Below are positions 1,688-61,407 of a DNA stretch of 64,000 nt, piece after piece. The notes beneath the pieces were generated by a model. It was not told the DNA's origin. It saw only the letters and a program-made list of their open reading frames with translations, and searched no databases. The DNA is from Thiobacillus sp. Its GTDB lineage: Bacteria > Pseudomonadota > Gammaproteobacteria > Burkholderiales > Thiobacillaceae. Within the stretch, counting starts at the first letter, position 1. Every line of letters starts with the position of its first letter. Location: contig NZ_JAUYRI010000013.1 of assembly GCF_030696885.1 (NCBI RefSeq), positions 62,001-126,000 of the forward strand, written 5' to 3'. The translations under genes were made by a program, and so were the position numbers.

Positions 1688-1696
1688 GGCCTCACC

Positions 1697-2747: not shown

Positions 2748-2754
2748 AAAAACC

Positions 2755-3363: not shown

Positions 3364-3448
3364 CCACGTCTGGGATCGCTGCGGCGTGCCCCAGAGCGGA
3401 CACCGCGCGGCCAAACGAATCTCGGTGAGGTTGACCCATGCGGGTCAG

Positions 3449-3481
3449 GACCGCGCTCATGGGAGAGCTTCGAGCGCGGTC
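3449..3481. terminator. Hairpin between DedA gene and TerC remnant
   Basis: A perfect 10-base stem (gaccgcgctc at 3449-3458 with gagcgcggtc at 3472-3481) encloses a 13-base loop. It sits between the 3' ends of the DedA gene (+) and the TerC remnant (-), so it could act in both directions. There is no strong T run after it, so intrinsic termination is plausible but not proven. Confidence 0.45.
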
Positions 3482-3486
3482 TGGCC

Positions 3487-4055
3487 TTATGGCTTGCGTG
3501 TGGCGATCAGGCTCGCGATGACGCTGGCGCCGATCAGCACTGAGACGACCACAAGCGAGATCACCACCGGCAGGTGAATCCAGGGCGCGATCAGCATCTT
3601 GGTGCCGATGAAGGTGAGTACCATGGCAAAGCCATATTTCAGCAGATGGAAGCGGTCCGCCACATCGGCGAGCAGGAAATGCAGCGCCCGCAGACCCAGG
3701 ATGGCGAAGATGTTGGACGTGAAGACAATGAACGGGTCGGTGGTGATGGCGAAAATAGCCGGGATGGAATCCACTGCGAACACCACGTCTGACACCTCGA
3801 TCAGGATCAGCACCAGGAACAGCGGCTGAAATAGCGCACGCCGTCCTTCACCACGGTAAATTTCTCGCCGTGATAGTCCTTGTGGATTCTCAGATGCCGG
3901 TGCGCGAGCCTGAGCACCGGGTTTTTTTCCAGGTCCGGCGCCTTCTCCGCCATGACCAGCATGCGGATGCCGGTAACGACCGGGAATACGCCGAATAGAT
4001 GGAGTACCCTCTGACTGAGCCCGGCCAGGGCGGCGATGATTCTGTAAATTCGCAC
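3487..4055 (-). pseudogene. TerC-family membrane protein, truncated and frameshifted
   Basis: Two abutting frames together spell the middle and end of a TerC/YkoY-type integral membrane protein (metal or tellurite related). The upstream piece (4055 to about 3825) has [18 protein letters not shown] and DLEKNPVLR. The downstream piece (3813-3487) continues with [18 protein letters not shown] and [19 protein letters not shown]. Joining them needs one extra base near 3828-3832, in a short T run (TATTTCAG). The family has about 90-100 more N-terminal residues, and no matching frame is visible upstream before the CNNM gene. The gene therefore has both a frameshift and a lost 5' part. The T-run shift alone could be a sequencing error; the missing N-terminus could not. 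Confidence 0.8.
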
Positions 4056-4188
4056 GGCGTTGTCCAGCCCAGGCCGGCGGCCGCGAAGTTTGAACTTGCT
4101 ACAGCGCGTTGCTCACAGAGGTTTTCAGGCAAAATGCCGGCTTCACCACACCAGAGTCGCGTGCCCACGGGCAAGGGGCGACTTGCAT

Positions 4189-5505
4189 ATGGACATAGCG
4201 TTACTCCTGTTCCTCATTCTGCTCAACGGCGTTTTCGCCATGTCGGAAATCGCCGTGGTGTCCTCGCGCAAGGCCCGCCTGCAGCGGCTGGCGGACGACG
4301 GCAGCCCCGGGGCGCACTCGGCGCTGGCCCTCCACGCCGACCCTTCGACTTTCCTCTCCACCATTCAGGTAGGCATCACCTCCATCGGGATTCTCAGCGG
4401 CGCCATCGGCGAAGCCGCGCTGGCCGACCCTCTGGCGGTCTGGCTGGCGCAGTTCACCCTGTTCGAACCCTATGCCCGCGGCATCGCGCTCACGATCGTG
4501 GTATTCGGCCTGACCTATTTTGCCGTTGTAGTCGGCGAACTGGTTCCCAAACGTCTGGCCCTGCTGGCACCGGAAGGCACCGCCTCGCTGATCGCACGGC
4601 CCATGAACATGTTGTCGCGCCTCACGCGGCCCGTGGTGTGGCTGCTGTCGGCGTCCTCCAGTGTGCTGTTGCGCATGATGGGCGCACGCCGCAAGGAAGA
4701 GCCGCCGGTGACCGACGATGAAATCAACGTGCTGATGGGCCAGGGCGCCGAAGCCGGGGTATTCCATCAAAGCGAACAGGAGATCGTTTTCAATGTGTTG
4801 CGCCTGGACGAGCAGCGCCTCGGCGCGATCATGACCCATCGCACCGATATTTATCTGATCGATCTCGACGATCCGGAAGACGAGATCCGCCATCTGATTG
4901 CAGAAAGTCCCTATGAGCGCATTGTGGTCTGCCGCGACGGTCTCGACCATGTCGCCGGGATCCTGCGCACGTCCGACCTGCTCAAGCCCGCGCTGACCGG
5001 CGGCCCGCTGAATATCGAAGCCGCCTTGCGCGCGCCCCTGTATGTGCCGGATAGCGTCAGCACCACCCAACTGCTCGAAAGCTTTCGCAAGGCGCGCATG
5101 CAGTTCGCGCTGATCGTTGATGAATACGGTGATCTGGAAGGCCTGGTGACCTTAACCGACGTGCTGACCTCCATCGTGGGTGATTTACCTTCCTACGATT
5201 CGCCCGACGAGCAGGACGTGGTCGAACGCGAAGATGGTTCCTGGCTCGTGGATGGCAGCGTGACCATCGAACGGCTCAAGTCGGTCCTGGAGTTCGACGA
5301 TGAACTGCCGGGCGAGGAAGAGAATGCGTTCAACACCCTGGGCGGGTTCGTCATGCACATGCTGGGACATATCCCAGCCGTGGCCGATCATTTCGAATGG
5401 GAAGATTGGCGTTTCGAAGTGATGGACATGGACCGGAACCGGGTGGACAAGATGCTGATCGCGCGCCTCGCAGCGGCTCAGAATTCGGCGGAGGCCAAAT
5501 CATGA
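4189..5505 (+). CDS. CNNM/CorC-HlyC family protein (DUF21, CBS pair, transporter-associated domain)
   Basis: This 438-residue inner-membrane protein has a DUF21/CNNM membrane domain (about residues 1-185, opening with a helix then MSEIAVVSSRKARL), a CBS-domain pair (about 205-325) and a C-terminal CorC_HlyC domain (about 345-435). Family members are linked to magnesium or cobalt efflux and were formerly called haemolysins. The frame is open further upstream, but that part is basic and unlike the family. The ATG at 4189 has an AAGGGG ribosome binding site about ten bases ahead and gives the normal start. The gene converges on pdxJ. The transported ion is inferred from family only. Confidence 0.88.
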   Translation: MDIALLLFLILLNGVFAMSEIAVVSSRKARLQRLADDGSPGAHSALALHADPSTFLSTIQVGITSIGILSGAIGEAALADPLAVWLAQFTLFEPYARGIALTIVVFGLTYFAVVVGELVPKRLALLAPEGTASLIARPMNMLSRLTRPVVWLLSASSSVLLRMMGARRKEEPPVTDDEINVLMGQGAEAGVFHQSEQEIVFNVLRLDEQRLGAIMTHRTDIYLIDLDDPEDEIRHLIAESPYERIVVCRDGLDHVAGILRTSDLLKPALTGGPLNIEAALRAPLYVPDSVSTTQLLESFRKARMQFALIVDEYGDLEGLVTLTDVLTSIVGDLPSYDSPDEQDVVEREDGSWLVDGSVTIERLKSVLEFDDELPGEEENAFNTLGGFVMHMLGHIPAVADHFEWEDWRFEVMDMDRNRVDKMLIARLAAAQNSAEAKS

Positions 5506-5587
5506 CGGCGGCCGTCGAGCTTCGCTAAGCGCCGATCAGCCAACTCCGCCGGCTGGGTGCGCAGCACGCCAACATCCTGCCGGCAGT

Positions 5588-6319
5588 TTACCCGGAGGCC
5601 GCTTCCACCATCAGCCGCTTCATCTCCGCCACCGCCTCTTTCATGCCGACGAACAGCGCCTGCGCGACGATCGCGTGGCCGATGTTGAGCTCGTGGATCC
5701 CGGGTAGCGCGGCGATCGGCTGGACGTTGTGATAAGTGAGGCCGTGGCCGGCGTTGACGGTGAGGCCCAGACTGCGGCCGTAAGCGACGGCGGTGCGGAT
5801 ACGCTCGAACTCGACGATGCGGGCAGCATCGGTTTCAGCGTCGGCGTAGGCGCCGGTGTGGATTTCGACCACCGGCGCGCCGGCCGCGAGCGCGGCGTCG
5901 AGCTGCGCGAAGTCGGGGTCGATGAAGAGCGAGACGCGGATGCCGGCCCCGGCGAGACGCTTGCAGGCGTCGGCGATTTTCGGCGCCTGGCCTTTGACGT
6001 CGAGCCCGCCTTCGGTGGTGAGTTCCTCGCGCTTTTCTGGCACCAGGCAGACGTCCTGCGGCCGGGTGGCGAGGGCGATGTCGAGCATCTCCCCGGTCAC
6101 CGCCATTTCGAGGTTCATCTTGGTCTTCAGCACCTGGCGCAGGATCGCAACGTCGGCGTCCTGGATGTGGCGACGGTCTTCGCGCAGATGCAGCGTGATC
6201 GAATCGGCACCGGCGGTTTCCGCCAGCAGCGCGGCTTCCACCGGGCTGGGATAGCGGGTCTTGCGCACCTGGCGCAGGGTGGCGATGTGGTCGATGTTGA
6301 CGCCGAGATAAATGCTCAT
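5588..6319 (-). CDS. pdxJ: Pyridoxine 5'-phosphate synthase
   Basis: PdxJ condenses 1-deoxy-D-xylulose 5-phosphate with 3-amino-2-oxopropyl phosphate to make pyridoxine 5'-phosphate, the last ring-forming step of DXP-dependent vitamin B6 synthesis. The 243-residue TIM-barrel protein begins with the signature [16 protein letters not shown] and holds [14 protein letters not shown] near residues 42-55, plus the C-terminal [10 protein letters not shown]. It lies 100 bases after recO, a usual neighbour. In many relatives acpS follows, but here the convergent CNNM gene comes next and no acpS is seen. Confidence 0.97.
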
Positions 6320-6344
6320 TCCATTTCCAAATTAAAAAGATCGC

Positions 6345-6388
6345 GAAGGTGAGCCGCAGACAGTACGAACAGTACGGCAAGGCGAAAC
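6345..6388. repeat. Possible dispersed intergenic element between recO and pdxJ
   Basis: The 100-base gap between recO and pdxJ contains a segment reading gagccgcagacagtacg then aacagtacggcaaggcg, with the 8-mer acagtacg twice. From memory, this type of sequence is scattered in intergenic gaps of several proteobacteria. A single copy is seen here, so only a genome-wide count can show whether it is a repeat family. Confidence 0.35.
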
Positions 6389-6419
6389 CGACAAAGAGAT
6401 TTTTGATTTGGGGATGGAA

Positions 6420-7169
6420 TCATGGATTCAGTTCTGTAAGTTCGCGTAACAGCTGGCGAGTATAAAGCGGCTTGGCGCCGAGGGTGTGGTTGATCAGGCT
6501 GCGCATCAGGGCCTTGGCTTCGGCCAGCGTGGCGGCCATCTCGAAGCGGTCGGCGGCCAGATCGATCAGGGTCTGGCCCGAGACCGGACAACCCGGCTGG
6601 CCGATGGCACGTAACGCACCCCGTTCGGGCTGGAATACATAGCGGCCGGCGGGATCAATCGGCGCACCGCTGTCCGCCTCGATATCGAAGGTGGCGCCAT
6701 AGCCGATTTCGGACAGCAGGTTTTTTTCGAAGCGGCGCAATATCCGCTCGAAATACGTGGCGCGTTCGAAATCGGTGGCGCCGGTCTCGCCCGCCAGCAG
6801 GTCGAGGGTGGCGACGTAGCGGTCGTACAGCAGTTCGTGCGCGTCGCCGCGCGCCATCAGGCGCAGCAGCAGCTCATTGAGATAAAACCCGCACATCAGC
6901 GCGCGCCCCTGCGGCGGGGTCAGTCCACCCAGCCATTCGGCGCCATGCAGGGTTTTCAGATCGGATTTGCCGAACCACGACAGCGAGAGCGGGGTGAACG
7001 GCTGCATCAGCCCGCGCAGCGCGGAGGCGGGACGCCGCGCGCCGCGCGCGATCAGCGACACGCGGCCGTGGCCGCGGGTGAAGACTTCTGCCACCACGCT
7101 GGTTTCCTTGAACGGATAGGTGTGGAGGATGAAGCCGGGTTCGTTGTTGATGCGAGCGTCGCCGGACAT
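6420..7169 (-). CDS. recO: DNA repair protein RecO
   Basis: RecO helps load RecA on SSB-coated single-stranded DNA in the RecFOR recombinational repair pathway. The 249-residue protein has the typical N-terminal OB fold (GFILHTYPFKETSVVAEVFT, residues about 12-31), a basic patch RGARRP, and the helical C-terminal domain with LYDRYVATLDLLAG. The zinc-binding cysteines found in some RecO proteins are not obvious. It follows era on the same strand with a short gap, the classic rnc-era-recO order. Confidence 0.95.
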   Translation of the reverse strand: MSGDARINNEPGFILHTYPFKETSVVAEVFTRGHGRVSLIARGARRPASALRGLMQPFTPLSLSWFGKSDLKTLHGAEWLGGLTPPQGRALMCGFYLNELLLRLMARGDAHELLYDRYVATLDLLAGETGATDFERATYFERILRRFEKNLLSEIGYGATFDIEADSGAPIDPAGRYVFQPERGALRAIGQPGCPVSGQTLIDLAADRFEMAATLAEAKALMRSLINHTLGAKPLYTRQLLRELTELNP

Positions 7170-7203
7170 GCTTTAGGGATCCACGAAGTGGACGGACCAC
7201 ACC

Positions 7204-8088
7204 TCAGTCGATTCCCAGCGACTTCAGCATGCGCACGTCGTCGGCCCAGCCGCCCTTTACCTTGACCCAGACTTCCAGGTAGACCTTGCTGTCGAATGCA
7301 CGCTCCATGTCGAGCCGAGCCTGGGTGGAGATGGTCTTGAGTTTTTCACCACCTTTGCCGATCAGTATCGGCTTGTGGCTGTCACGGTCGACCAGGATGG
7401 TGGCGAAGATGCGGCGCAGATTGCCTTCTTCCTCGAATTTGTCGATCTGGACAGCGACCGCGTAGGGAATTTCCTCGCCGCACAGACGGAACACCTTCTC
7501 GCGGATCAGTTCGGCCGCGAGCTGGCGTTCGGTCTGGTCGGTGACGTCGTCTTCCTCGAACAGCGGCGCGTTTTCCGGCAGGTGGGTTTGCAGGGTTTTC
7601 AGCAGCTCGTCGAGGTTGCTGCCCTGCTTGGCCGACACGGGAACGATCTCGGTGAAGCCATGGGCCGCCGAAACTTCCTGCAGATACGCCATCAGCTCGC
7701 CGCGGTCCTTGACCTGGTCGATCTTGTTCACCACCAGGATCAGCGGGCGATCCTTGGGCAACAGCTCCATCACCTGACGGTCTTCCTTCTTCAGGCGGCC
7801 CGCTTCGACCAGCATCATCACCAGGTCGGTGTCCGACAGGGTTTCGCGCACGCGCTTGTTCATCGCGCGGTTCATGGTGCTGGCGTGGCGCGTCTGGAAG
7901 CCTGGCGTGTCGACAAACACGAACTGCGCTTCGTCGGTGGTGTGGATGCCCATCACCCGGTGGCGCGTGGTTTGCGCCTTGCGCGAAGTAATGCTGACCT
8001 TCTGCCCGACGATGCGGTTGAGCAGCGTCGACTTGCCGACGTTGGGGCGGCCGACAATGGCGATGAGGCCACACTTGAACTGGCTCAT
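7204..8088 (-). CDS. era: GTPase Era
   Basis: Era is an essential GTPase that binds the 3' end of 16S rRNA and assists 30S subunit maturation. The 294-residue protein has G1 GRPNVGKS (residues 13-20), G3 DTPG, G4 NKID and a C-terminal KH domain ending in the conserved GGWADD. The frame is open far upstream, overlapping rnc. The start at 8088 (MSQFKCGLIAIVGRPNVGK) matches the family length and lies 13 bases after the rnc stop. Together with rnc and recO it forms a standard RNA-maturation and repair cluster. Confidence 0.97.
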   Translation of the reverse strand: MSQFKCGLIAIVGRPNVGKSTLLNRIVGQKVSITSRKAQTTRHRVMGIHTTDEAQFVFVDTPGFQTRHASTMNRAMNKRVRETLSDTDLVMMLVEAGRLKKEDRQVMELLPKDRPLILVVNKIDQVKDRGELMAYLQEVSAAHGFTEIVPVSAKQGSNLDELLKTLQTHLPENAPLFEEDDVTDQTERQLAAELIREKVFRLCGEEIPYAVAVQIDKFEEEGNLRRIFATILVDRDSHKPILIGKGGEKLKTISTQARLDMERAFDSKVYLEVWVKVKGGWADDVRMLKSLGID

Positions 8089-8101
8089 ATTGATAGTTGG
8101 C

Positions 8102-8782
8102 TCATTTTTGCAATGCGGCGCACGCCTGGCGTGCGGCCTCCTGTTCGGCGGCGCGGCGGCTCTTGCCGATGCCGCGCGTATTGAGTGCGGGCTTCGCCAG
8201 CACGCACTCGACGATAAAGCTCTGGTCGTGCGCTTCGCCCTGGGTGTCGACCAGCCGGTAGTCCGGTAGCGGCAAGCGGCGCGACTGCAGGATTTCCTGC
8301 AATTGCGTCTTCGGGTCCTTGCCCGAGGCGGAGGGGTCGATTTGCGCCACCAGCGGGTCGAACAGGCCGCGCACCACGCGTTGCGCGGCGTCGAAGCCGG
8401 CGTCGAGAAAAACCGCGCCGAACAGCGATTCGAGCGCGTCGGCCAGGATCGAGGGGCGGCGGAAGCCGCCGCTCTTGAGTTCGCCCTCACCCAGGCGCAG
8501 GCTCTCGCCCAGCTTCAGTTCAACCGCGATGTCGGCCAGGGTTTCCTGCCGCACCAGGTTGGCGCGCAGGCGCGACAGGCTGCCTTCCGGCAAATCGGGA
8601 AACGCGTCGTACAACGCGCGTGCAACCGAGCAGTTGAGCACCGAGTCGCCCAGAAATTCGAGCCGCTCGTTGTTCAGCGCAGCGTAGCTGCGGTGCGTCA
8701 GCGCCTGGGTCAAGAGCTCGGGGCGGGTGAAGGTATAGCCCAGCGCCTGCTGCAGGCGCTGGTTCAGCAGGGCATTATTCAA
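8102..8782 (-). CDS. rnc: Ribonuclease III
   Basis: RNase III cuts double-stranded RNA, notably the 30S rRNA precursor. The protein (226 residues with the chosen start) has the catalytic signature [10 protein letters not shown] with its acidic residues, a second acidic site around [14 protein letters not shown], and a C-terminal double-stranded RNA binding domain (KTQLQEILQ to the end). The TTG at 8782 is preferred: it gives a normal length and overlaps the DUF4845 stop by 8 bases. An upstream in-frame start at 8842 would add a proline-rich, unlike stretch inside the previous gene. The start is the only uncertain point. Confidence 0.93.
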
Positions 8783-9176
8783 TCCGGGGGGGCGCGGCGT
8801 TGGGGTCGGAGCTGGCGCTGAAGTCGACCACCAGGCTGACATTGCCGACCAGCTTGGTGCGGAAAGCGTAATCGGCGGAAATCACCGGAACACCGCCGCG
8901 ACGGTCGATGCTGAGGTCCTCCGGCTTGACCTCGGTGACATAGGCCACGCCGGCACGGCGTGAAAAATCGTTGCGGATTTCAGCATTGCTTTTCGATCTG
9001 AGATCGGATTCCTGCCCCATCGTCGACAGGACCTTCTTCACCGAGAAGAATTCGATATAGGCCGGGACCAGTTTCATCGCCAACATGGCCAGCATGATCG
9101 CGATCACGGCAAAGAACAGGAAACCGATCATGGAAACGCCGCGCTGTCTGGATTGGATGGTGCGTGCAAAGTTCAT
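8775..9176 (-). CDS. DUF4845 family membrane protein
   Basis: This 133-residue protein of unknown function has one N-terminal membrane helix (about residues 14-33, after QRGVSMIGF) and a small soluble domain expected in the periplasm, with the pattern KVLSTMGQE and [20 protein letters not shown]4845 proteins are almost always found between lepB and rnc in beta- and gammaproteobacteria, as here. The N-terminus vaguely resembles pilin-like leaders (QRGVSMIGF), but no pilus genes are nearby. The stop overlaps the start of rnc by 8 bases, so translation is probably coupled. Confidence 0.85.
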
Positions 9177-9185
9177 GCTGTCTCC

Positions 9186-9995
9186 TTATCGAATGGTGTT
9201 GCCGATGCGTCCGAAATCGTCGAAGTTCATCCAGATGAAAAAGGCCTTGCCGACGATGTTCTGGTCCGGGACGAAGCCCCAGTAACGGCTGTCGTTGCTG
9301 GCGTCGCGGTTGTCGCCCATCGTGAAGTAATGGCCCGCCGGCACCTTGCAGGCAAAACCCTCACCTTCGGCATTGTATGAGCAGTTTTCACGGTAGGGGA
9401 AGTCCATCACCTGGGGCGGGTATACCGAGGGCTTGCCCGGCTCGGCCATCATGGTGTGGCCGACGCCATTGAGGTGTTCCTGGTAGACCATCGCGGTGAC
9501 ATAGCTGAGGCCGTTGCCGACGTAGCTGTAGGTGCCGGCATTGTCGAGCCGGACCGGCTGGCCGTTGACGCTGAGCTTCTTGTCGCGGTATTCGATCAGG
9601 TCGCCCGGCACGCCAATGACCCGCTTGATGTAGTCCAGCCCCGGGTCGGCCGGGTAGCGGAACACCATGACGTCGCCGCGCGCCGGGCTGTTCAGCTCGA
9701 CCACTTTCTTGTTGATGACCGGCAGGCGGATGCCGTAGGTGTACTTGTTGACCAGGATGAAGTCCCCGATCAGCAGCGTCGGCATCATCGAGCCTGACGG
9801 AATCTTGAACGGCTCGACCAGGAAGGAGCGCAGGCCGAACACGATCAGGATGACCGGGAAGAAGCTCTTGGCGTATTCGACCAGCAAGGGTTCGCGGACA
9901 TCCTTGTCGCGGAAGCGCCGGAACACCAGCACGTCGAGCAGCCAAATGCCGCCGGTGACGACCAGCGCAATGAAAAGGATGAGGGCAAAGTTCAT
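9186..9995 (-). CDS. lepB: Signal peptidase I
   Basis: LepB removes signal peptides from exported preproteins at the outer face of the inner membrane. The 269-residue protein has two N-terminal membrane segments (about residues 3-25 and 43-61). The catalytic serine S69 lies in PSGSMMPTL and the general-base lysine K124 in YIKRVIGVPGD. The late GDNRDASNDSRYWG box is also present. The frame runs on into lepA, but the ATG at 9995, just after the lepA stop, is the family start. It sits between lepA and DUF4845, the usual order. Confidence 0.97.
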   Translation of the reverse strand: MNFALILFIALVVTGGIWLLDVLVFRRFRDKDVREPLLVEYAKSFFPVILIVFGLRSFLVEPFKIPSGSMMPTLLIGDFILVNKYTYGIRLPVINKKVVELNSPARGDVMVFRYPADPGLDYIKRVIGVPGDLIEYRDKKLSVNGQPVRLDNAGTYSYVGNGLSYVTAMVYQEHLNGVGHTMMAEPGKPSVYPPQVMDFPYRENCSYNAEGEGFACKVPAGHYFTMGDNRDASNDSRYWGFVPDQNIVGKAFFIWMNFDDFGRIGNTIR

Positions 9996-9997
9996 GG

Positions 9998-11797
<1,800 letters not shown>

Positions 11798-45591: not shown

Positions 45592-46380
45592 TTAATTTTT
45601 ACTGGTAATGAGGCCGCCGGTGGGCGAACTCGGGCTGGCCTGGTAAACCTTCTTCGGCATGCGGCCGGCGAGGAAAGCTTCGCGACCGGCCTCCACCGCC
45701 TTCTTCATCGCCGAGGCCATCAGCACCGGATTGCCGGCGCCGGCAATCGCGGTATTCATCAGCACCGCATCGCAGCCGAGCTCCATCGCAATGGTCGCGT
45801 CGCTCGCGGTACCGACGCCGGCGTCGACGATCACCGGCACCGAGAGGCGGTCGATGATGATTTGCAGGTTCCACGGATTGAGGATGCCCATGCCGGAGCC
45901 GATCAGGCTCGCCAGCGGCATCACCTCGACGCAGCCGATGTCTTCCAGCTGCTTGGCCACGATCGGGTCGTCCGACGTGTAGACCATCACCTGGAAGCCA
46001 TCCTTCACCAGCACCTCGGCTGCCCGCACGGTTTCAGCCACGTTGGGATACAGCGATTCGGCGTCGCCCAGCACTTCGAGCTTGACCAAAGAATGTCCAT
46101 CCAGCAGCTCGCGCGCCAGGCGCAGCGTGCGGATCGCGTCGTCGGCCGTGTAGCAGCCCGCGGTGTTGGGCAGGTAGGTGTATTTCGACGGCGGCAGCGC
46201 ATCGAGCAGGCTGGGTTGGCCGGCGTCCTGGCCGATGTTGGTGCGGCGGATCGCGACGGTGACGATTTCCGCACCCGAGGCTTCGACCGCGAGGCGGGTC
46301 TGTTCGAAGTCCTTGTACTTGCCGGTGCCTACCAGCAGGCGGGAGGCATAGGATTTATCGGCGATGATGAGTGGTTCCAT
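45592..46380 (-). CDS. thiG: Thiazole synthase
   Basis: ThiG makes the thiazole ring of thiamine from 1-deoxy-D-xylulose 5-phosphate, dehydroglycine and the ThiS thiocarboxylate. The 262-residue TIM-barrel has [17 protein letters not shown], the active-site lysine region [21 protein letters not shown], and the phosphate-binding [11 protein letters not shown]. The ATG at 46380 is preferred over a TTG two codons earlier. It follows thiS. No TPP riboswitch is seen upstream of the pair. Confidence 0.96.
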
Positions 46381-46428
46381 ATTCAAAGGGGCCAGGAGCT
46401 GGGATCTAGGGGCTAGGGGAAAACCGGA

Positions 46429-46632
46429 TCAGCCGCCGCCGACCGCGACGACGATCTCGAGGCGGTCGCCACTGGCAAGCGGCGTGTCGGCATGCTGGCT
46501 GCGCGGTACGATTTCACCGTTTTTTTCGATGGCGATGCGTTTCCCCGCCAGATCCAGCGACTCGATCAGTTGGGCAAGGGTGAGCGGTGCAGGGAAGACG
46601 CGGGTTTCGCCGTTGATGGCCAGTTCAATCAC
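46429..46632 (-). CDS. thiS: Sulfur carrier protein ThiS
   Basis: ThiS is a ubiquitin-fold carrier whose C-terminal Gly-Gly receives sulfur for thiazole synthesis. The 67-residue protein has IELAINGETRVFP, the central AIEKNGEIVPRSQ and ends VAVGGG, so the reactive diglycine is present. It starts at GTG 46632; the longer upstream frame is not conserved. A 48-base gap with degenerate GGGGCCAGG-type repeats separates it from thiG. Confidence 0.93.
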   Translation of the reverse strand: MIELAINGETRVFPAPLTLAQLIESLDLAGKRIAIEKNGEIVPRSQHADTPLASGDRLEIVVAVGGG

Positions 46633-46697
46633 AACTTCTATCCGGGCATGAGTTTCAGTATGATGCCGAATTCTACCCTGAAGGGCGCAGCGATCGG

Positions 46698-46771
46698 GCG
46701 GGCGTCGTATAGTGGCATTACCTGAGCTTCCCAAGCTCATGAGGAGGGTTCGATTCCCTTCGCCCGCTCCA
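46698..46771 (+). tRNA. tRNA-Gly (anticodon CCC)
   Basis: The 74-base cloverleaf includes an encoded CCA end. The acceptor stem is GCGGGCG (46698-46704) with CGCCCGC (46761-46767). The anticodon stem is TGAGC/GCTCA with loop TTCCCAA, giving anticodon CCC. The T arm reads GAGGG-TTCGATT-CCCTT. It decodes GGG glycine codons. It lies divergent from thiS and just upstream of the first DUF1631 gene. Confidence 0.96.
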
Positions 46772-46833
46772 GTAAACGCAAGACGCGCCTACGCGCGGCA
46801 CCCGTGTTATCCGACCCTTGTAGCGCACAACCC

Positions 46834-48879
46834 ATGAACACTCCCTCAGCGTCGCCTGCTCCGGCCGAACTGCTGCACGAAACCGACGCACGCATGGCCC
46901 AGGCGCTGGAAAACTTCTTTCAGCGCAGCCACGGGCCGATTCAGGATGCCATTCTGCGCGTCATTTCGACCCGGATCACGCCGGAAGCACTCACCGCCGG
47001 GCAAGTCTGCCTGGACTGGATCAACGCCTATCCGGAAACGCTCTCCGCCGCCTTTGCCGAGCAGTTCCGTCACCATCTCGAACATCCCGACACGTTTGCA
47101 CAGACCCAGGACCCCTATCCGGCCGAGCTGCAACTGGTCGACGATGAAGCGCTGCGCCGCCAGCTGGCTGCGGACAAAATCGCCACCCAGCTGACCGAAA
47201 ACCTGCGTGCCGACATGCTGCTGCTGTTCGGCCGCATGCAGTCGCTGCGGCGGGCTGCGCTGGAAGACGAGACGCAGGCCAATGCCTATGGACCCCAGCC
47301 CGTGGTGCGTGCGCTGTCGCATGCCCTGGACACGCTCGACCTCGACACCGCAGCCGGCACGCTGCTTTTGCAGTGTGCACGCGTACCGCTGCAGGACACG
47401 CTGAAGCAGACCTACGCCGCAATCAGCCAGTTTCTGGCCGCGCAGGACATTCCCGTCCTGCCGGTCGAGCACATTTTGCCGGCGGCGGCGCCCCGAAAAA
47501 CGGAAGCTGACGCGGGTCATGACATCCTGGCGCACATCCAGTCCGTCGCTGCGCACGCAACAGCCGGTGGCAGTGGCGCCGCTATGGGAAATGGCGCCGG
47601 CGCCGCAGGGATGGCGTCCCGGCCCCTGCTCGACCGCCTGACAGACTGGCCCATCCGTCAGGCGGTCGACCTGGTGACCGACGCGCCGGCACGCCTGCTG
47701 CGCCAGCTGCAGAGCGAAGCCCGCAAGGCCGGCACCGGCGCATTCGACCTCGCCGTGCTGGATGCCGTGGCCGGTCTGTTCGATTTCATCCTCGACGACC
47801 CGGATGTCTCGCCGCGCTACAAAGCCGCGATTGCGCACCTGCAGATCCCGGCGCTGCGGGTCGCCCTGGTCGCGACCGATTTCTTCAGTGACGACCAGCA
47901 TCCGGCACGCCAGCTGATCGACCTGACGGGTGCGTTTTCACGGCGCTTTCCCGAGCATGCGCCATCGCACGACGATGCGCTCGGGCAGGTCGAGTCCGCC
48001 TGTGCCGCCATCCTCGGCGACCCGGGTCATCCGGTGGATGCGTTTGCCCGCGCCCACCGCGCGCTCGCCGCTTGGCTGGGAGACGAGGAGGCGCGAGCCG
48101 AGGCCCGTCTTGCGGCCGAAGTCGCCCAGCTGGAACATATCGAGCGCCAGGAACTGGGCACGCTGCTGGCGCTGGAAAACTTGCAGGACCTGACCGCACG
48201 CTATCCCGCGCCGGAATCGGTATTGCGGCGCCTAGAGGCAGCCTGGGTGTCGCACATGGCCGCGCTGTACATGGCCGAATCGGGTGAGGGACCGGCTTGG
48301 CGCATAGCCTGCTCGACACTGCTGCAGCTGTTTCAGAGCCTGCAGCCGCCGGACACCGACACGCTGCGCGAATCCCGTCTGCAATCGATTCCACGCATCA
48401 ACGCGGCCCTGCGCGAAGGGCTGCTGGCGCAAGGTGCCGAGCCGGCGCAATTGAAAAACTTTTTCAGCGCCATCACCGCCACCCAGGAAGCCTGGATCCG
48501 CCCTGCGGTGGGACAGCGCGAAGCCACGACCAGCTGTTTCACACCGCGGCAGGTCACGCCCGAGCAGATCGAATCGCTCGCCCGCCAGCGGGAAGACACG
48601 CCCGACGACGACGCCCTGCACCAGGCGCAACAGTTGCTGGAAGGTGACTGGGTGGATTTTTCCCCGCCCTATGAAGGCCTGCCGACGGCGCGCGTGGCCT
48701 GGGTCGGGGTGCGTGGCTATCTGCTGTTTTGCGACAGTGAGGGCGAGCAGCGCTTTTCCTTCGATTGCGAGCGTCTCGCAGCCGAAATTCGCGCCGGCAG
48801 GGCCTCAATTCCGGAGCACTCACTTACCCGAAAAGCCTTTCTGCGTCTGAAGTCCAGCATGGAATCCGTCCCAGACTGA
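46834..48879 (+). CDS. DUF1631 family protein, copy 1
   Basis: This 681-residue protein belongs to the DUF1631 group of large alpha-helical proteins, sometimes misnamed thymidine phosphorylase. It has an N-terminal helical region with ENFFQRSHGPIQDAIL. A glycine-rich linker (about residues 238-262) precedes the core DLAVLDAVAGLFDFILDDPDVS and YKAAIAHLQIPALRVAL. A C-terminal beta-rich domain follows (about 600-680: GDWVDFSP, ARVAWVGVRGYLLFCDSEGEQRFSF). That last domain resembles PilZ-like modules, by pattern only. It is paralogous to the next gene. No promoter motif is obvious after the tRNA. Function is unknown. Confidence 0.8.
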   Translation: MNTPSASPAPAELLHETDARMAQALENFFQRSHGPIQDAILRVISTRITPEALTAGQVCLDWINAYPETLSAAFAEQFRHHLEHPDTFAQTQDPYPAELQLVDDEALRRQLAADKIATQLTENLRADMLLLFGRMQSLRRAALEDETQANAYGPQPVVRALSHALDTLDLDTAAGTLLLQCARVPLQDTLKQTYAAISQFLAAQDIPVLPVEHILPAAAPRKTEADAGHDILAHIQSVAAHATAGGSGAAMGNGAGAAGMASRPLLDRLTDWPIRQAVDLVTDAPARLLRQLQSEARKAGTGAFDLAVLDAVAGLFDFILDDPDVSPRYKAAIAHLQIPALRVALVATDFFSDDQHPARQLIDLTGAFSRRFPEHAPSHDDALGQVESACAAILGDPGHPVDAFARAHRALAAWLGDEEARAEARLAAEVAQLEHIERQELGTLLALENLQDLTARYPAPESVLRRLEAAWVSHMAALYMAESGEGPAWRIACSTLLQLFQSLQPPDTDTLRESRLQSIPRINAALREGLLAQGAEPAQLKNFFSAITATQEAWIRPAVGQREATTSCFTPRQVTPEQIESLARQREDTPDDDALHQAQQLLEGDWVDFSPPYEGLPTARVAWVGVRGYLLFCDSEGEQRFSFDCERLAAEIRAGRASIPEHSLTRKAFLRLKSSMESVPD

Positions 48880-48898: not shown

Positions 48899-48925
48899 TC
48901 AAGTTTTTTTTCTCAGGGCCGATAG
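48899..48925 (+). promoter_or_regulatory. Sigma-28 (FliA) promoter of DUF1631 copy 2
   Basis: TCAAGTTT (48899-48906), an 11-base spacer and GCCGATAG (48918-48925) match the flagellar sigma-28 consensus TAAAGTTT-N11-GCCGATAA at nearly every position. Transcription would start near 48932, just before the riboswitch aptamer, so the promoter and the RNA sensor fit together. Confidence 0.85.
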
Positions 48926-48953
48926 AACAGTTGTGCGGTTGAGTGTCGATTTT

Positions 48954-49062
48954 CCGGCACGATCGCCGACTACCGAACAGGGCAAACCCGCCGCGAGGCG
49001 GGGACGCAAAGTTACCGGTCTCTACCCCTGATGCTGGGCGGCCGAGACAGCGGGACCGCCGG
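48954..49062 (+). promoter_or_regulatory. Cyclic-di-GMP class I (GEMM-I) riboswitch
   Basis: The aptamer core is nearly consensus. ACAGGGCAAACC (48977-48988) is followed by a P2 stem cgcc/ggcg capped by the GNRA tetraloop GCGA (48993-48996), then GGGACGCAAAG (49001-49011). P3 is closed by gtctc (49018-49022) with gagac (49044-49048). A P1 pairing ccggc (48954-48958) with gccgg (49058-49062) closes the domain. It sits in the leader of the second DUF1631 gene, 70 bases before its ATG. The expression platform probably lies between 49062 and 49131, where a small CGCG-ATAC-CGCG hairpin abuts the ribosome binding site. The direction of control is not readable. Confidence 0.9.
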
Positions 49063-49131
49063 CAGAGCCTCTGTCATGCGCAGCACCCCGTTCCCACGTC
49101 GGCCAACCCGCGATACCGCGAGGTGATTCCC

Positions 49132-51375
49132 ATGGAGCGCGAGATGCCAGAAAATTCAGTCGTAGTGAACCTCAACCAGTTTGAGCGTTCCCGCCGTACG
49201 CAGCTTTCCGCGGAAATCCTGGCGACCCTGCACGGTTGCCGCGACCTGCTGATCGAAGGCGCTGCCCGCGTGCTGACCCGCCATGCCGAAGGCATGGAAA
49301 ACGCACTGCTGTCCATGGCCGACCGCTCACCGCTGCTGGAGACGCGCAACAGCTACTACGACGCCCAGCGCGTACTCAACCGACAGGCCAATGAATTGCT
49401 CAGCGCCTGCAAGGACGCCTACTGCAAGGGCTTCGACGATTTTGCCCACAACCGCGAGACCCCTGCTGCTGCGGATTCGTTGCTCGAACTGTCGCTGGTG
49501 GACGATCACGACTTCGAAATCACCCTCGCAGTCGACAAGGCCACTTCACGCATGCGCTTCAACTGCGCCGAAGAACTGGTCGCACTGGATGCCCGCATCG
49601 CGCACCTGCTGGGCCGCTCCGATCTTGCCGAGAACGAAAATCCGCTCGGCCCGCGCGCCCTGTGTCAGGCGCTGCTGGACGGCATCACCCGCATGCAGCT
49701 GGACCAGAACGTTCGCGTCGTCCTGCTGAACCAGTTCGATCTGGTGCTGACCACCGAACTCGCGCACATCTATCAGTCCATCAACACGCACCTGATCGAT
49801 CGCGGCATCAAGCCCGACCTCAAGGTCGGTGCGAAAAGCCGCGGCCAATCCGCCGCGGCCTCCCAGTCCGGTGCAGGCGGCACGGCACAGTCGCTCGCCG
49901 GCCAGCCTGCCAATGACCTGTTCAAGCTGTTCGAGCAACTGGCACACGGCACAGGCACAGGCACAGGCACAGGTAGCGGGGGCGGTATGGTGGGCGGGGG
50001 CGGAGGGGCGGGCGGCATGGCCGCGGGAGGAATGCCCGGCTTCAGCCTGGTCGATTCGCTCGGTCAGTTGCAATCCGGCTCGGCCATGATGCTGCCCGGC
50101 GGGGTGCGCTACGAGTTGCCCCTGCTGGAAGCGGCCACGATGCAGAACGTGCTCCGCAACCTGCAGCAGAGCCCGGTCATGCAGGCCGCCAGCCCGCTCG
50201 ATGCCGTGCTGGTGGACGCGGTGGCCATGCTGTTCGACGTGGTATTCGACGAGAACAGCATCCCGGATCACCTCAAGGCGCAAATCGGACGCTTGCAGAT
50301 CCCGGTCCTGAAGGCCGCGATGCTGGATCGCAACTTCTTCCTGCAGCCGAACCACCCGGTCCGCCGGATGCTCGACGCGATCGCCAAGCTGTCCGTCCAC
50401 CTGCCCGACAACGAAGCCGGCCATGCCCGCCTGGAAGCGATCTCGCACGTGATCACCCGGGTTCTCGACTCCTTCGAAAAGGACATCGCCGTCTTCGGTG
50501 ATGCCGCGAAGGAGCTCGAAGCCATGGGCGCCGAGCTGGAAGAAACCCTGGAAGAGACGATCGATGTCAGCCTGCAGGAGGACATCGCCCAGATCAAGCA
50601 GGCCGAGCGCGCCGAACTCGCGCCGGTGATCGTGCATGACTTCATCAACCGCGCGCTCAAGGAACAACCGGTGGACGAGATCGTGCGTGAATTCCTGCGG
50701 CGCGACTGGGCCCAGCTGCTGACCATGGACTTCGTCAATGAAGGCGAACAGGGCGCGCATTTCAACAGTCATGTCGAAACCATGCGCGAGCTGGTGTGGA
50801 GCGTACAGCCCAAGTCGGACATGGATGCGCGGCTGATGCTGGTACGCATTCTCCCGGGACTGCTGAAGCGCCTGCGCGAAGGTGTCACGGAAATCGACCT
50901 GCCTCAAAAACTCAGCGACCGCTTCTTCGCCACGCTGGTAATTCTGCACGCCAACGCGGTGCGTCCCAATGCCCAGCCGGTGCCGCTGCCGGAGATCACG
51001 CCCGAGGAAATCGGCGAATACACCACCCCGCTTGCTGCCGAAGTCGCCGCCCCCGCCGCCGAGGTCGAACCTGCCGCACCCGAAGTTGAGGACGAATTCA
51101 CGATGCGCGCGCGCGAACTCAACAAGGGCGACTGGGTGGAATTCCACTACGACGACGGCACCTTCCGCTGGGCACGCCTCGGCTGGGCCAGCAGCATCAA
51201 GAGCACCTACCTGTTCTCGGACCAGGACGGCATGAACAGCTTCTCCATCAGCGTGAACCGCCTGGCCAGCAAGCTGCGCAGTGGTGAAGCAGTGATCGTG
51301 GAACGCAAGTCCATCACCGAGTCTGCGTTCGGCAAGCTGGTCAACCTGTTCCGCCAGAAGCTCGGCCACGCCTGA
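49132..51375 (+). CDS. DUF1631 family protein, copy 2 (riboswitch-controlled)
   Basis: This 747-residue protein is the paralogue of the preceding gene. It has the helical N-terminus (QFERSRRTQLSAEILATLHG) and a glycine- and threonine-rich linker (about residues 272-300), which includes four copies of the hexamer ggcaca. The conserved core reads LDAVLVDAVAMLFDVVFDENSIP and LKAQIGRLQIPVLKAAML. The C-terminal domain (GDWVEFHYDDGTFRWARLGW, YLFSDQDG) is PilZ-like by pattern. The open frame runs up into the riboswitch; the ATG at 49132 with GAGGTGA before it is preferred. The sigma-28 promoter and c-di-GMP riboswitch tie it to motility or the sessile switch. The molecular role is unknown. Confidence 0.82.
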   Translation: MEREMPENSVVVNLNQFERSRRTQLSAEILATLHGCRDLLIEGAARVLTRHAEGMENALLSMADRSPLLETRNSYYDAQRVLNRQANELLSACKDAYCKGFDDFAHNRETPAAADSLLELSLVDDHDFEITLAVDKATSRMRFNCAEELVALDARIAHLLGRSDLAENENPLGPRALCQALLDGITRMQLDQNVRVVLLNQFDLVLTTELAHIYQSINTHLIDRGIKPDLKVGAKSRGQSAAASQSGAGGTAQSLAGQPANDLFKLFEQLAHGTGTGTGTGSGGGMVGGGGGAGGMAAGGMPGFSLVDSLGQLQSGSAMMLPGGVRYELPLLEAATMQNVLRNLQQSPVMQAASPLDAVLVDAVAMLFDVVFDENSIPDHLKAQIGRLQIPVLKAAMLDRNFFLQPNHPVRRMLDAIAKLSVHLPDNEAGHARLEAISHVITRVLDSFEKDIAVFGDAAKELEAMGAELEETLEETIDVSLQEDIAQIKQAERAELAPVIVHDFINRALKEQPVDEIVREFLRRDWAQLLTMDFVNEGEQGAHFNSHVETMRELVWSVQPKSDMDARLMLVRILPGLLKRLREGVTEIDLPQKLSDRFFATLVILHANAVRPNAQPVPLPEITPEEIGEYTTPLAAEVAAPAAEVEPAAPEVEDEFTMRARELNKGDWVEFHYDDGTFRWARLGWASSIKSTYLFSDQDGMNSFSISVNRLASKLRSGEAVIVERKSITESAFGKLVNLFRQKLGHA

Positions 51376-57925: not shown

Positions 57926-59014
57926 ATGAGCGAGGCGCCGCGCAGCCTGCATGTGATCGGGGGCAAGGGCCTGGGGGGTGCGGAAGGCTTCTTCATCCGC
58001 CTGGTGAATGCGCTGGCGCGCCGCGGCGAACCCGTCGCCGCCGTCACAGTGGGCAGTGGCGCAATCGCCCGCGCAATCGATCCGGCCGTGCGTCATTACC
58101 ACGCGCCTATGCTCGGCAGCTGGGACCTGTACTCGCGCTGGAAAATCAATCGCTGCATCGCCGACTTCCGACCCGACGTGGTGCAGACCTACATGGGCCG
58201 CGCGACCCGTATCGTGCGCCTGCCCCGTGGGCGCGCACCGGTGCATCTGGCGCGCCTGGGCGGCTTCTACAATCTCAAGGGCTACCGCCACGCCCACGCC
58301 TGGGTGGGCAACACGCGCGGGATACACGACTATCTGTTAGCGCGTGGTCTGCCTGCCGGGCAGGTCCATCAGATCGGCAACTTCGTGGATGCCCCGCCGC
58401 GTCTTGAATCATCCGCGCTCGACGTGCTGCGCGAGCAACTGGGTTTGCACGGCTGCCGCATCGTTCTCGGCCTGGGCCGCCTGCACGTCAACAAGGGCTG
58501 GGCCGATCTGCTGCGGGCGTTTGCGCGCCTGCCTGCCGCACTCGATACCGAACCGCTACATCTTCTGATGGTGGGTGACGGTCCATTGCGCAGGGAACTG
58601 GAAGCCCTGTCCGCCGAACTCGGCATCGCCGCGCGCGTTCACTGGGCCGGCTGGAAGCACGATCCGGCGCCCTACTACCAGCTGGCCGATGTCTTTGTCT
58701 GCGCTTCGGTGCACGAGCCACTCGGCAATGTCATCCTGGAGGCCTGGGCGAACCGCGCGCTGGTGGTATCGACCCGCGCCCAGGGGCCGCAGGAGCTGAT
58801 GCAGGATGGCGTGAATGGCCTGCTGGCGCCGCTCGCCGATGCAGCCGGGCTGGCGGCGGTCCTGCAGCATGCGCTGGCGCTCGATGCCGGGCAACGCGAA
58901 CGCCTGATCGAAGCGGGCGCCGACGAAGTGGAGCGCCGCTATTCCGAAACCGCGATCGTATCCGCCTACACGGCCCTGTACGCGCGCCTGAGAAACGCCG
59001 TTCGCGCCGCTTAG
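57926..59014 (+). CDS. Glycosyltransferase, GT-B fold (GT4-like)
   Basis: This 362-residue protein has an N-terminal HVIGGKGLGGAEGFFIRLVNAL segment and a C-terminal GT4-type domain with VLGLGRLHVNKGW, LLMVGDGPLRREL and the donor-binding ASVHEPLGNVILEAWANRALVV. It should transfer a sugar from a nucleotide donor to LPS, exopolysaccharide or a lipid. The first-domain HLARLGGFYNLKGYRHAHAWVGN is distinctive of LPS-type members. It follows the phosphomannomutase by 5 bases, and its end overlaps the GGDEF-EAL gene by 4 bases. Confidence 0.85.
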   Translation: MSEAPRSLHVIGGKGLGGAEGFFIRLVNALARRGEPVAAVTVGSGAIARAIDPAVRHYHAPMLGSWDLYSRWKINRCIADFRPDVVQTYMGRATRIVRLPRGRAPVHLARLGGFYNLKGYRHAHAWVGNTRGIHDYLLARGLPAGQVHQIGNFVDAPPRLESSALDVLREQLGLHGCRIVLGLGRLHVNKGWADLLRAFARLPAALDTEPLHLLMVGDGPLRRELEALSAELGIAARVHWAGWKHDPAPYYQLADVFVCASVHEPLGNVILEAWANRALVVSTRAQGPQELMQDGVNGLLAPLADAAGLAAVLQHALALDAGQRERLIEAGADEVERRYSETAIVSAYTALYARLRNAVRAA

Positions 59015-61407
59015 TCCACCGGCAGCGGCGCCGGCCGGTGCAGCAGAAAGCCCTGCACGTAATCCAGCCCCATCGCTTTGAGGCAAGCCAGCTCTTCCTC
59101 GGTCTCGACCTGTTCAGCGATGGTCTGTTTACCCAGTTCCTGCCCCAGCGTGTGCATCGCTTTGACGATTGCGAGTTTTTCGCGGTCGAGATTCATGCCG
59201 CGCACGAATTCGCCGTCGATCTTGAGGCTGGTAACCGGCAGACGTTTCAGGTAGCCGAACGAAGACTGGCCTTTGCCGAAATCGTCCAGCGCAAACTGGA
59301 TGCCGTGCGCCTGCAGCGTCAGGATCAGCCGCTCGCAGGCATCCAGGCTGTCGATCGCCGCGGTCTCGGTGACCTCGAAGCTGATCCGCGCGGGGTCGAA
59401 GTGGTACTGGCCGATCTGGTCGAGAATGAACTCGGCCGTGCCGGGGTCGCTGAGGCTGCGACCGGACAGGTTGATCGCGTAGTGGGCTTCGTCATCAGGA
59501 TGGGTATCGAGGTAGGCAAAGAAGTTGCGGATGACCCAGCGGTCGAAGCTGGGCGCCAGCCCGTAGCGCTCGGCGGCCGGCAGGAACTCGCCCGGTGAAA
59601 TGATGGTGCCGTCCTCGCCGCGCAGACGCAACAGGATTTCATAATGCTGCGTCGTGACGGCAGAGGACAGCGCCACTTTCAGCTGGCGATACAGCACGAA
59701 GCGGTGCGCTTCGAATGCCTTGGTGATCGCGCCCACCCACTGCATTTCGTCGTTGATTTTCTGCAGCGCGGGGTGCGCCTCCTCGTATACCTGGATCGCG
59801 CCGCCGCCAAACGACTTGGCGTGATAGCAGGCAGTATCCGCCTGCGCCAGTATCTCGCCGATGTCGGTCATGCTGCTGTTCAGCTCAGTCACGCCGAAGC
59901 TCACCCCCAGCCGGAACACCTTGTCTTCCCATTCGAAACGGAAACGGGCGATTTCGTCCCGTAGCGCCTGGATATGCTCGAGCGCCTGCGGCAGGCTGAC
60001 ATCGACGAATAGCAGGCCGAATTCGTCGCCGCCCAGCCGCGCCAGATAATGGTTCGCGTTTTCCGTACGGTGCACCATCAGCGCCGCCAGCCGCTGCAGC
60101 AGCGCGTCGCCCGCACGGTGGCCGCAGGTGTCGTTGACCAGCTTGAAGCGATCGAGATCGATGTAGCAGAAAATGAAACGCTGCACTTTGTGTTGCACTG
60201 CGTTCAGTGCGCAGGCCAGCCGTTCCTCCATCGCCCGCCGGTTCCACAGTCCGGTCAGATGATCGCGTTCGGCCTGCCAGGCCAGCCGCTGCATCAGACC
60301 GCGCCGTTCGCTCTCGTCCTGGAACACCAGCACACCGCCCTGCACCTTGCCGTCGGCGGAGCGAATCGGCGCGGCGGAATCGCTGATCGCGATGGTCACG
60401 CCGTCGCGGCGGCGTATCACCGCATGGTTTCCCAGGGCGACCACGGTGTTGCGCTCAAGCGCCTGCTCCAGCGGATTCTGGACGGGTTCGCCGCTGCTCT
60501 CGTCGATCAGCGGCAGCACATCGCCCACCCGACGGCCCCGCGCCTGCTGGCTGCTGAAGCCGGTCAACGTTTCCGCGGTGGGGTTGAGAAACTCGATCAG
60601 GCCGTCGGCATCGGTCACCACAACGGCATCGCCGATCGATTCGATAGTCACGCGCAGGCGTTCCTTTTCCACCAGCAGGTCCGCATGTTTGCGCTCGAGG
60701 GCGCTGATCAGGCGGCTCACATGGTCGGCCATGTGGTTGAAGGCCAGCTTGGTCTCGCACACTTCGGGCGGCGAGCTGTAGGCCAGGCTGACGCGCGCGC
60801 TGAAATCGCCGCTTTCGATGACGCGCGCGGTCTCGCGCAAGGCATACAGGCCGCGCAGGCTCACTCGCAGATGCCAGTGCAGCAGCAGCATGATGCCGAC
60901 CAGACTGCCAATGGCCAGCAGGGTGAAGCGCGCCGCCAGCACCCACAGTTCCTGCAGCGTGGGGCCGGCATCGAGCTCGACGCCCAGCGCGCCGTAGGTC
61001 GACCCGCCGATCACCAGATCGGACTGCGCGTGCGGCGCATGAATGGCCAGCAGCGCGGCAAACCAGGCCGGATGCGCCGTAGGTTCTGCCGGTACGCGCG
61101 TCTCCAGCGTGACTTTTGGCGACTCGAAGCGCACAGCGTGAACATGTGCCGTGTGCGCGCGCGCCTTGATCACCTGCTCGATGGCCGGGTAATCACGCAA
61201 CAGCACATGATCCTGAATCGCCGCCATCATCGCGCCCAGTTCGCGTTCGGCACCGCCATCCAGATTCTGTTGTGCGCGCTGCACCAGCGGCACGCCCAGC
61301 ACCGCCAGCGTCGCCAGATACATCGCCAGCACAAGAACGAATACCGCCCCCAGGATGCGCGCCTGCAGGCTATAGCGCGCACTGCGCGCTACCTGCGGCT
61401 CACTCAT
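59011..61407 (-). CDS. GGDEF-EAL sensor protein (HAMP, PAS)
   Basis: This 798-residue membrane protein has TM1 (about 20-41), a periplasmic sensor region, TM2 (about 160-178), HAMP (about 180-240), PAS (about 245-370), GGDEF (motif 459-463) and EAL (from about 560). GGDEF is intact, but the inhibitory I-site RxxD is absent. The EAL motif is EIL (590-592), still compatible with phosphodiesterase function, since later residues such as FEVTE, DDFGKGQSS and KIDGEFV are kept. Its start overlaps the PhnD-type gene stop by 8 bases, so the pair is a likely ligand-sensing unit that sets c-di-GMP. Confidence 0.92.
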   Translation of the reverse strand: MSEPQVARSARYSLQARILGAVFVLVLAMYLATLAVLGVPLVQRAQQNLDGGAERELGAMMAAIQDHVLLRDYPAIEQVIKARAHTAHVHAVRFESPKVTLETRVPAEPTAHPAWFAALLAIHAPHAQSDLVIGGSTYGALGVELDAGPTLQELWVLAARFTLLAIGSLVGIMLLLHWHLRVSLRGLYALRETARVIESGDFSARVSLAYSSPPEVCETKLAFNHMADHVSRLISALERKHADLLVEKERLRVTIESIGDAVVVTDADGLIEFLNPTAETLTGFSSQQARGRRVGDVLPLIDESSGEPVQNPLEQALERNTVVALGNHAVIRRRDGVTIAISDSAAPIRSADGKVQGGVLVFQDESERRGLMQRLAWQAERDHLTGLWNRRAMEERLACALNAVQHKVQRFIFCYIDLDRFKLVNDTCGHRAGDALLQRLAALMVHRTENANHYLARLGGDEFGLLFVDVSLPQALEHIQALRDEIARFRFEWEDKVFRLGVSFGVTELNSSMTDIGEILAQADTACYHAKSFGGGAIQVYEEAHPALQKINDEMQWVGAITKAFEAHRFVLYRQLKVALSSAVTTQHYEILLRLRGEDGTIISPGEFLPAAERYGLAPSFDRWVIRNFFAYLDTHPDDEAHYAINLSGRSLSDPGTAEFILDQIGQYHFDPARISFEVTETAAIDSLDACERLILTLQAHGIQFALDDFGKGQSSFGYLKRLPVTSLKIDGEFVRGMNLDREKLAIVKAMHTLGQELGKQTIAEQVETEEELACLKAMGLDYVQGFLLHRPAPLPVD

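Follow-up and report, generated by a model that had tools for sequence, protein, structure and literature searches.

Among described cyclic di-GMP (c-di-GMP) riboswitches, Vc2, Cd1, and merRNA come closest to the leader analyzed here, in which a FliA (sigma-28)-type promoter and a class I c-di-GMP aptamer precede a DUF1631 gene in Thiobacillus sp. (64,000 nucleotides of contig NZ_JAUYRI010000013.1; "the window" denotes this whole stretch). The leader shares with Vc2 of Vibrio cholerae its aptamer class and the residues G20, A47, and C92, named as ligand contacts in the available text of PMC4744006. Vc2 is described in the accessible part of PMC9262584 as a translational OFF switch dependent on helix P1. 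Its target gene is a different one, and the platform proposed for the window differs in using long-range helices with the 5' end of the transcript. We know of no FliA promoter for Vc2. Cd1 of Clostridioides difficile is, according to the same part of PMC9262584, a transcriptional OFF switch before flagellar genes; it resembles the proposed switch in being of class I and in that bound c-di-GMP lowers motility-linked output, but differs in acting on transcription and in not being a DUF1631 leader. For Bdellovibrio bacteriovorus, the available sections of PMC3627812 describe merRNA, a c-di-GMP riboswitch RNA, as being expressed in the motile phase and report a FliA-like motif at 92 of 140 phase-specific promoters. 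The window leader would share with merRNA a c-di-GMP riboswitch in a FliA-linked motile phase, whereas no conserved open reading frame follows merRNA and the table in those sections of PMC3627812 gives it no FliA-promoter mark. Of the Rfam models, c-di-GMP-I-GGC (RF03167) scores best with the window aptamer but differs at position 47, where the model consensus has G and the window A. DUF1631 itself is named by Pfam as a family of unknown function, and among the papers searched three mention it, none of them being about it by title, and none joins it to PilZ, GGDEF, and EAL.

A FliA-type promoter and a class I aptamer in the DUF1631 leader

The leader occupies a 252-base gap between two adjacent DUF1631 genes (Table 1) and contains, from 5' to 3', the FliA-type promoter, a 5' hairpin, the aptamer, and a conserved segment leading up to the start codon. 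The downstream gene far exceeds the PF07793 gathering threshold of 33.7 bits, in agreement with the family assignment of the original prediction, which had been made from the sequence alone; the upstream gene, absent from that prediction, is a divergent member of the family.

The promoter boxes, TCAAGTTT and GCCGATAG, agree with TMAAGTTT-N11-GCCGATAA, which we take to be the sigma-28 consensus, at 15 of 16 positions and with a spacing of 11 (10 to 12 being accepted). No second site scoring at least 14 was found on either strand of the window, which bears out the near-perfect sigma-28 promoter originally predicted. Forty dinucleotide shuffles gave 0.075 sites of at least 14 per window and none of at least 15, and the strict pattern occurs once in the 3.0-Mb genome and not at all in a reversed control. 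Because the flagellin gene of this genome reaches just 12 at its best upstream site, the assumed consensus is an imprecise yardstick here. The genome encodes two FliA-type sigma factors above the TIGR02479 cutoff as well as a flagellin family match; the two sigma genes lie on one contig (194030-194692 and 241428-242096), and several further Thiobacillus genomes also have two such genes. Both the presence of the box and its conservation suggest that the transcript depends on FliA RNA polymerase. No FliA-like site scoring at least 13 was found for the upstream paralogue within 46301-46850.

A cmscan search placed the aptamer above the gathering thresholds of both RF03167 (59 bits; E value of 1e-12 in 64 kb) and RF01051 (c-di-GMP-I; 35 bits), the latter match starting one base earlier. 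The class I aptamer anticipated from the letters alone thus stood up to the Infernal check proposed for it, although it begins 46 bases past the -10 box and about 40 past the expected start rather than within 25 bases of the start as predicted. With residues placed by what we take to be the Vc2 sequence and numbering, it carries the complete G20/A47/C92 contact set. The GGC label refers to G at position 47, as in the RF03167 consensus; A47, however, is shared by the window with all 47 leaders of the genus, all 31 aptamers of a further alignment (A3), and all 20 leaders from the order. A true GGC variant with altered ligand or affinity would account for RF03167 outscoring RF01051 (63.7 versus 58.4 bits), but given A47 throughout, and G20 and C92 in the window, it is highly improbable, and GGC identity was rejected even though the score lies above the cutoff. 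The binding pocket reads as canonical for c-di-GMP, and the covariance model matches suggest that this is the ligand bound.

Table 1. Features of the DUF1631 locus, in coordinates of the window
Feature	Position	Strand	Evidence or remark
Upstream DUF1631 paralogue	46834..48879	+	PF07793, 256.3 bits
FliA-type promoter	48899..48925	+	-35 TCAAGTTT, 48899-48906; -10 GCCGATAG, 48918-48925; 15/16 to consensus
Expected transcription start	48932..48934	+	Predicted from -10 box and sigma-28 spacing
LR1 (long-range helix 1), 5' strand, GCGGUUG	48935..48941	+	Partner 49104-49111; alternative, local pairing in extended 5' hairpin
5' hairpin H5 (GUGUC/GGCAC)	48943..48960	+	Changes on both sides in 5 of 6 pairs, 47 leaders
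LR2, 5' strand, GCCGACU	48965..48971	+	Partner 49097-49103; 88.7% of cells paired; changes on both sides in 2 of 7 pairs
c-di-GMP class I aptamer	48972..49064	+	RF03167, 63.7 bits; RF01051, 58.4 bits
Aptamer P1	48973-48975/49060-49062	+	Part of the 48972-49064 aptamer
Contact residues	G20 = 48981, A47 = 49008, C92 = 49059	+	Assumed Vc2 numbering
LR3, possible anti-aptamer strand, CCCCGUUC	49086..49093	+	Complementary to GAACAGGG (48975-48982), aptamer core
LR2 3' strand (49097-49103) and LR1 3' strand (49104-49111)	49097..49111	+	Column-pair scan, pairing counts
Possible hairpin over SD1 (ACCCGCG/CGCGAGGU)	49106..49124	+	97.8% of cells paired, 47 leaders
Shine-Dalgarno 1 (SD1), GAGGUGA, for ATG 49132	49120..49126	+	Sequence
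DUF1631 gene	49132..51375	+	PF07793, 580.9 bits; 747 amino acids, or 743 from ATG 49144
Shine-Dalgarno 2 (SD2), GGAG, for ATG 49144	49134..49137	+	Retained with second ATG where first is lost or out of frame

Two in-frame ATG codons, at 49132 and 49144, could begin the downstream protein. The second is the more likely start, because residue 5 (ATG 49144) is invariant among 20 homologues and the first ATG is absent or out of frame in relatives (L104, L106 to L109, and L119) that retain GGAG and the second ATG. Given that invariance, a start at 49132 would add four residues too many. A tRNA gene (46698-46768) precedes the upstream paralogue, and the order tRNA, aptamer, DUF1631, with no upstream paralogue, recurs at eight loci of genus g12 (L067 to L071 and L073 to L075).

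Conservation and specificity of the paired elements

The FliA box and the aptamer are kept as a pair before DUF1631 in most relatives examined. Within Thiobacillus, 56 genomes yielded 52 orthologue loci (G056 gave no match, and G061, G076, and G099 weak matches only), and exclusion of L121, which has a broken or incomplete frame and a probable twin (L145) with the aptamer, left 51 leaders. The original prediction had called for a count of such leaders in related genomes, and they proved common: the aptamer core occurs in 47 of the 51 genus leaders, 135 to 170 bases upstream of the start, and Rfam places the aptamer upstream at 30 of 40 DUF1631 loci from other genera of the family. A FliA-like box is present in all 51. 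Scored over 75 bases ending 10 bases before the aptamer, it reaches at least 12 in every one of the 47 aptamer-bearing leaders (mean, 14.3), versus 1.6% of 3,760 random 75-base windows. Four leaders in which the aptamer is degenerate or lost (L054, L057, L104, and L119) keep a FliA box of 14 to 15 in a wider search window, within 330 bases of the start, and the promoter therefore looks more stable than the aptamer as an input in the genus. These four, natural tests of control by FliA alone, were left out of the leader alignment (A1), whose 47 members include one with a stop within the gene (L041), one with a frameshift near its end (L116), and three clipped by contig ends (L122, L123, and L125).

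Beyond the genus, the 40 family loci were drawn from the best listed matches, with G002 and G040 contributing two each; a FliA site of at least 12 accompanies 23 of the 30 aptamers, L159 (N upstream) being scored as a miss. Across 80 DUF1631 loci of a broader genome collection, the aptamer was found at 52, always on the strand of the gene and 49 times before the match; at L133, L139, and L145 it lies inside a joined match that probably begins in an upstream paralogue. Sixteen of the 52 fall outside the recognized family loci (Sulfuriferula, Sulfuricella, Rhodocyclaceae, and others by title). In a sample of 150 genomes from the order, class I sites are present in 60 and DUF1631 in 63; with the lists crossed by hand, an aptamer lies no more than 400 bases upstream of DUF1631 on the same strand in 23 of the 63, and 23 of the 106 class I sites listed, about a fifth, precede a DUF1631 frame. 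A sample of 370 genomes from across the class contained 128 with a DUF1631 match; of the 30 loci retrieved for the best matches in the class, one (L228) carries an aptamer.

Among 72 family aptamers, a FliA site of at least 12 precedes 17 of the 20 before DUF1631-type genes versus 14 of the 52 before others (rank test, p = 3e-7), in a partly chosen sample rather than a census: 30 best-match loci, 2 sites of the own genome, and 40 picked mostly away from DUF1631 orthologues. DUF1631 is missing in 7 of 13 family genomes without an above-cutoff FliA versus 3 of 104 with one (117 genomes; p = 4e-6), counts that were sorted by hand and represent fewer independent events than they suggest, 5 of the 7 being one small-genome genus. 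In small genomes of genus g9 (G041 to G045), the DUF1631 match, the RF03167 match, and an above-cutoff FliA are all missing together.

Many of the genes that follow the non-DUF1631 aptamers look secreted or pilin-like by eye, and some of these aptamers carry a box of the TAAAGTTTG-TCGAAA type, which may also be FliA. A TMAAGT..CGTTAC box often stands just upstream of other class I aptamers of the genus, several of them before secreted-looking proteins, and is perhaps a second FliA-type site (L001, L010, L016, L024, L245, L247 to L249, L253, L255, L256, L259, and L260).

A candidate expression platform

A column-pair scan of the 47 genus leaders ranked first a long-range helix, LR1 (score, 18.3), ahead of the aptamer's own P3 (8.3). 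In LR1, a GCGGUUG close to where the transcript begins pairs with a CAACCGC immediately ahead of the Shine-Dalgarno sequence; the helix is paired in 92.0% of cells, as opposed to 25 to 65% for slid versions, and shows 22 two-sided cells versus 6.1 in shuffles (0 of 500). LR1 together with LR2 (GCCGACC with GGUCGGC) is paired in 90.3% of cells and in 14 to 45% when slid. Weighed together with the stricter measures given below, LR1 is a probable helix and LR2 a weaker candidate. The window's own LR1 requires one bulged C. LR1 is mutually exclusive with both the extended 5' hairpin and the possible hairpin over SD1. A third candidate, LR3, appears in the predicted free fold of the window leader; its partner is near-invariant, which makes covariation uninformative.

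Locking the aptamer in constrained folding of the same leaders lowered LR1 in 18 and raised it in 1, and lowered LR2 in 23 and raised it in 1. Predicted access dropped by more than 0.1 at SD1 in 15 leaders and rose in none, and at SD2 fell in 21 and rose in 3. The mean changes (-0.071 at SD1 and -0.138 at SD2) both lay outside 12 flank-shuffle runs, which ranged from -0.001 to -0.043 and from +0.001 to -0.050, respectively. A first version of the test, which constrained P1 only, gave the same sign weakly (access lower in 14 and higher in 3 of 47). Averaged over the 47 leaders, the folding leans toward a translational OFF switch, a sign that we favor by a modest preference.

An intrinsic terminator was rejected as the platform, inspection by eye, with no terminator scan run, having found no hairpin with a U run between aptamer and gene. 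A switch acting on transcription, through Rho or termination, rather than on ribosome access would suit the C-rich stretch at 49064-49100 (Rho control being invisible in sequence) and the modest size of the predicted access effect; the same inspection and the position of the LR1 strand, which ends adjoining the Shine-Dalgarno sequence, make it quite unlikely.

The DUF1631 protein and its fusions

An AlphaFold model built on 75 sequences (alignment A4, which omits 10 of 67 usable homologues; L206 and L225 were unusable) had a mean predicted local distance difference test score (pLDDT) of 85.9 and a predicted template modeling score (pTM) of 0.60. It shows a mostly helical body (residues 14 to 628) and a small C-terminal beta domain with strands at 668 to 723. 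The PilZ-like C terminus that had been suggested for this protein found no support in its sequence and was rejected at that level: Pfam scans gave no PilZ match, although one of three entries in the second scan, L208, stood in the wrong frame and is uninformative, hhalign of the C-terminal domain against a small, diverse PilZ set returned a probability of 0.5%, and the PilZ motif, RxxxR plus (D/N)xSxxG, was not seen in the C terminus. No solved structure was matched in profile searches with the protein or with its C-terminal domain alone.

The best clue to function comes from fusions, in which DUF1631 appears to travel with c-di-GMP enzymes. Eight long DUF1631 frames were picked for length, and all seven that were domain scanned (L244 was not) contain GGDEF and EAL, four of them with an N-terminal PilZ as well. 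One of the seven, a 1,372-amino-acid DUF1631-GGDEF-EAL protein (L237, positions 5500-10800 of its contig, open reading frame 38-4153), is encoded by the own genome, and because of such fusions DUF1631 can be tied to c-di-GMP signaling. A further long DUF1631 frame of 1,336 amino acids lies on another contig of that genome (match, 57983-60028).

A proposed two-input gate and its alternatives

The explanation that we consider best, at about an even chance of being correct, is a two-input gate in which promoter and aptamer together allow DUF1631 production in cells with active FliA and low c-di-GMP. FliA RNA polymerase would initiate the transcript near 48932 in flagella-building cells, and the RNA would then fold into a canonical class I aptamer. 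At high c-di-GMP, the aptamer would form together with the local 5' hairpin, LR1 and LR2 would be lost, and the ribosome-binding region would become less accessible, as predicted for the average of the 47 leaders; at low c-di-GMP, LR1 and LR2 would form and DUF1631 would be translated. The protein would be a product of motile, low-c-di-GMP cells and, as the GGDEF-EAL fusions suggest, would act in the c-di-GMP and motility network. The original prediction saw in this leader a motile-to-sessile switch in which DUF1631 acts. Both elements are indeed real and paired, and the fusions tie the family to c-di-GMP; the folding, however, leans OFF, so that the product would belong to swimming cells rather than execute the change. 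More tentatively, and with the balance tilted against it, DUF1631 may be an unrecognized part of the motility and c-di-GMP circuit, made only in flagellated low-c-di-GMP cells by way of a FliA promoter and a class I riboswitch whose platform is a long-range helix joining the extreme 5' end of the transcript to the strand beside the Shine-Dalgarno sequence, its GGDEF-EAL fusions acting on c-di-GMP turnover.

Several observations weigh against the gate. On the promoter side, a FliA site of at least 12 near the aptamer was found in only 2 of 17 leaders outside the family and in 4 of 20 order leaders. These 20 were scored from the 23 (G000, G046, and G626 are not among them); three of the four positives belong to one family (f212), and a site within 300 bases was found in 8 of the 20. 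The 14 of 52 non-DUF1631 aptamers noted above likewise reach 12, and three genomes (G015, G034, and G037) have box and aptamer yet no above-cutoff FliA, though these drafts may have gaps. Read-through from the upstream DUF1631 gene could also be a source of the transcript. Sites in those three genomes, and the missing near box in most such leaders outside the family, are what would be expected if the FliA-like box were incidental and a housekeeping promoter or the same read-through transcribed the leader; against this stand the conservation of the box in 47 of 47 plus 4 of 4 genus leaders and the uniqueness of its strict match in the genome, and we judge an incidental box very unlikely.

On the platform side, stricter measures of covariation for LR1 resemble those of shuffles (two-sided pairs, 4 versus 2.9, 116 of 500; further pair types, 10 versus 10.8, 422 of 500), those for LR1 and LR2 together do not exceed them (107 and 239 of 500), and parsimony on the protein tree counted 10 paired double changes, 20 paired single changes, and 31 breaks. 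An energy-based duplex test in 29 leaders of other family genera gave a mean z of -0.25, which is not significant (L093 being an exception; L102 was in the FliA test and not in this one). Within the genus, the mean was -0.44, with 5 of 47 leaders below -1.65. Because the duplex test gave no signal, LR1 rests on covariation and not on energy. The Shine-Dalgarno hairpin shows no covariation across the 47 leaders and is improbable in both folding states, increasing on locking in 7 and decreasing in 5. Access changed by no more than 0.1 in 32 of 47 leaders at SD1 and 23 of 47 at SD2, and the leader of the window itself shifts little (SD1, 0.41 to 0.39; SD2, 0.15 to 0.06).

That small effect leaves room for the opposite sign, in which c-di-GMP would turn translation ON and DUF1631 would serve as a coincidence detector in cells just settling, where FliA transcripts overlap with rising c-di-GMP. 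A local helix of GGUCGGC with GCCGAU, formed in place of pairing with the 5' end, could release the Shine-Dalgarno sequence, and both signs are known for the aptamer fold, Cd1 and Vc2 being OFF and pilM ON with its own ligand (PMC9262584, in the part available). The local helix is unevenly kept, however, its weakest pair occurring in 22 of 47 leaders, and locking the aptamer lowers the mean access of both Shine-Dalgarno candidates beyond what shuffled flanks produce; an ON switch is unlikely on this evidence, if still worth serious attention.

For the DUF1631 family, the conserved leader indicates under what conditions the protein is needed and the GGDEF-EAL fusions indicate in which circuit, and the role of DUF1631 is therefore directly testable. 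The pairing of promoter and aptamer, kept in most relatives examined, points to a part for DUF1631 in deciding whether Thiobacillus cells swim or settle.

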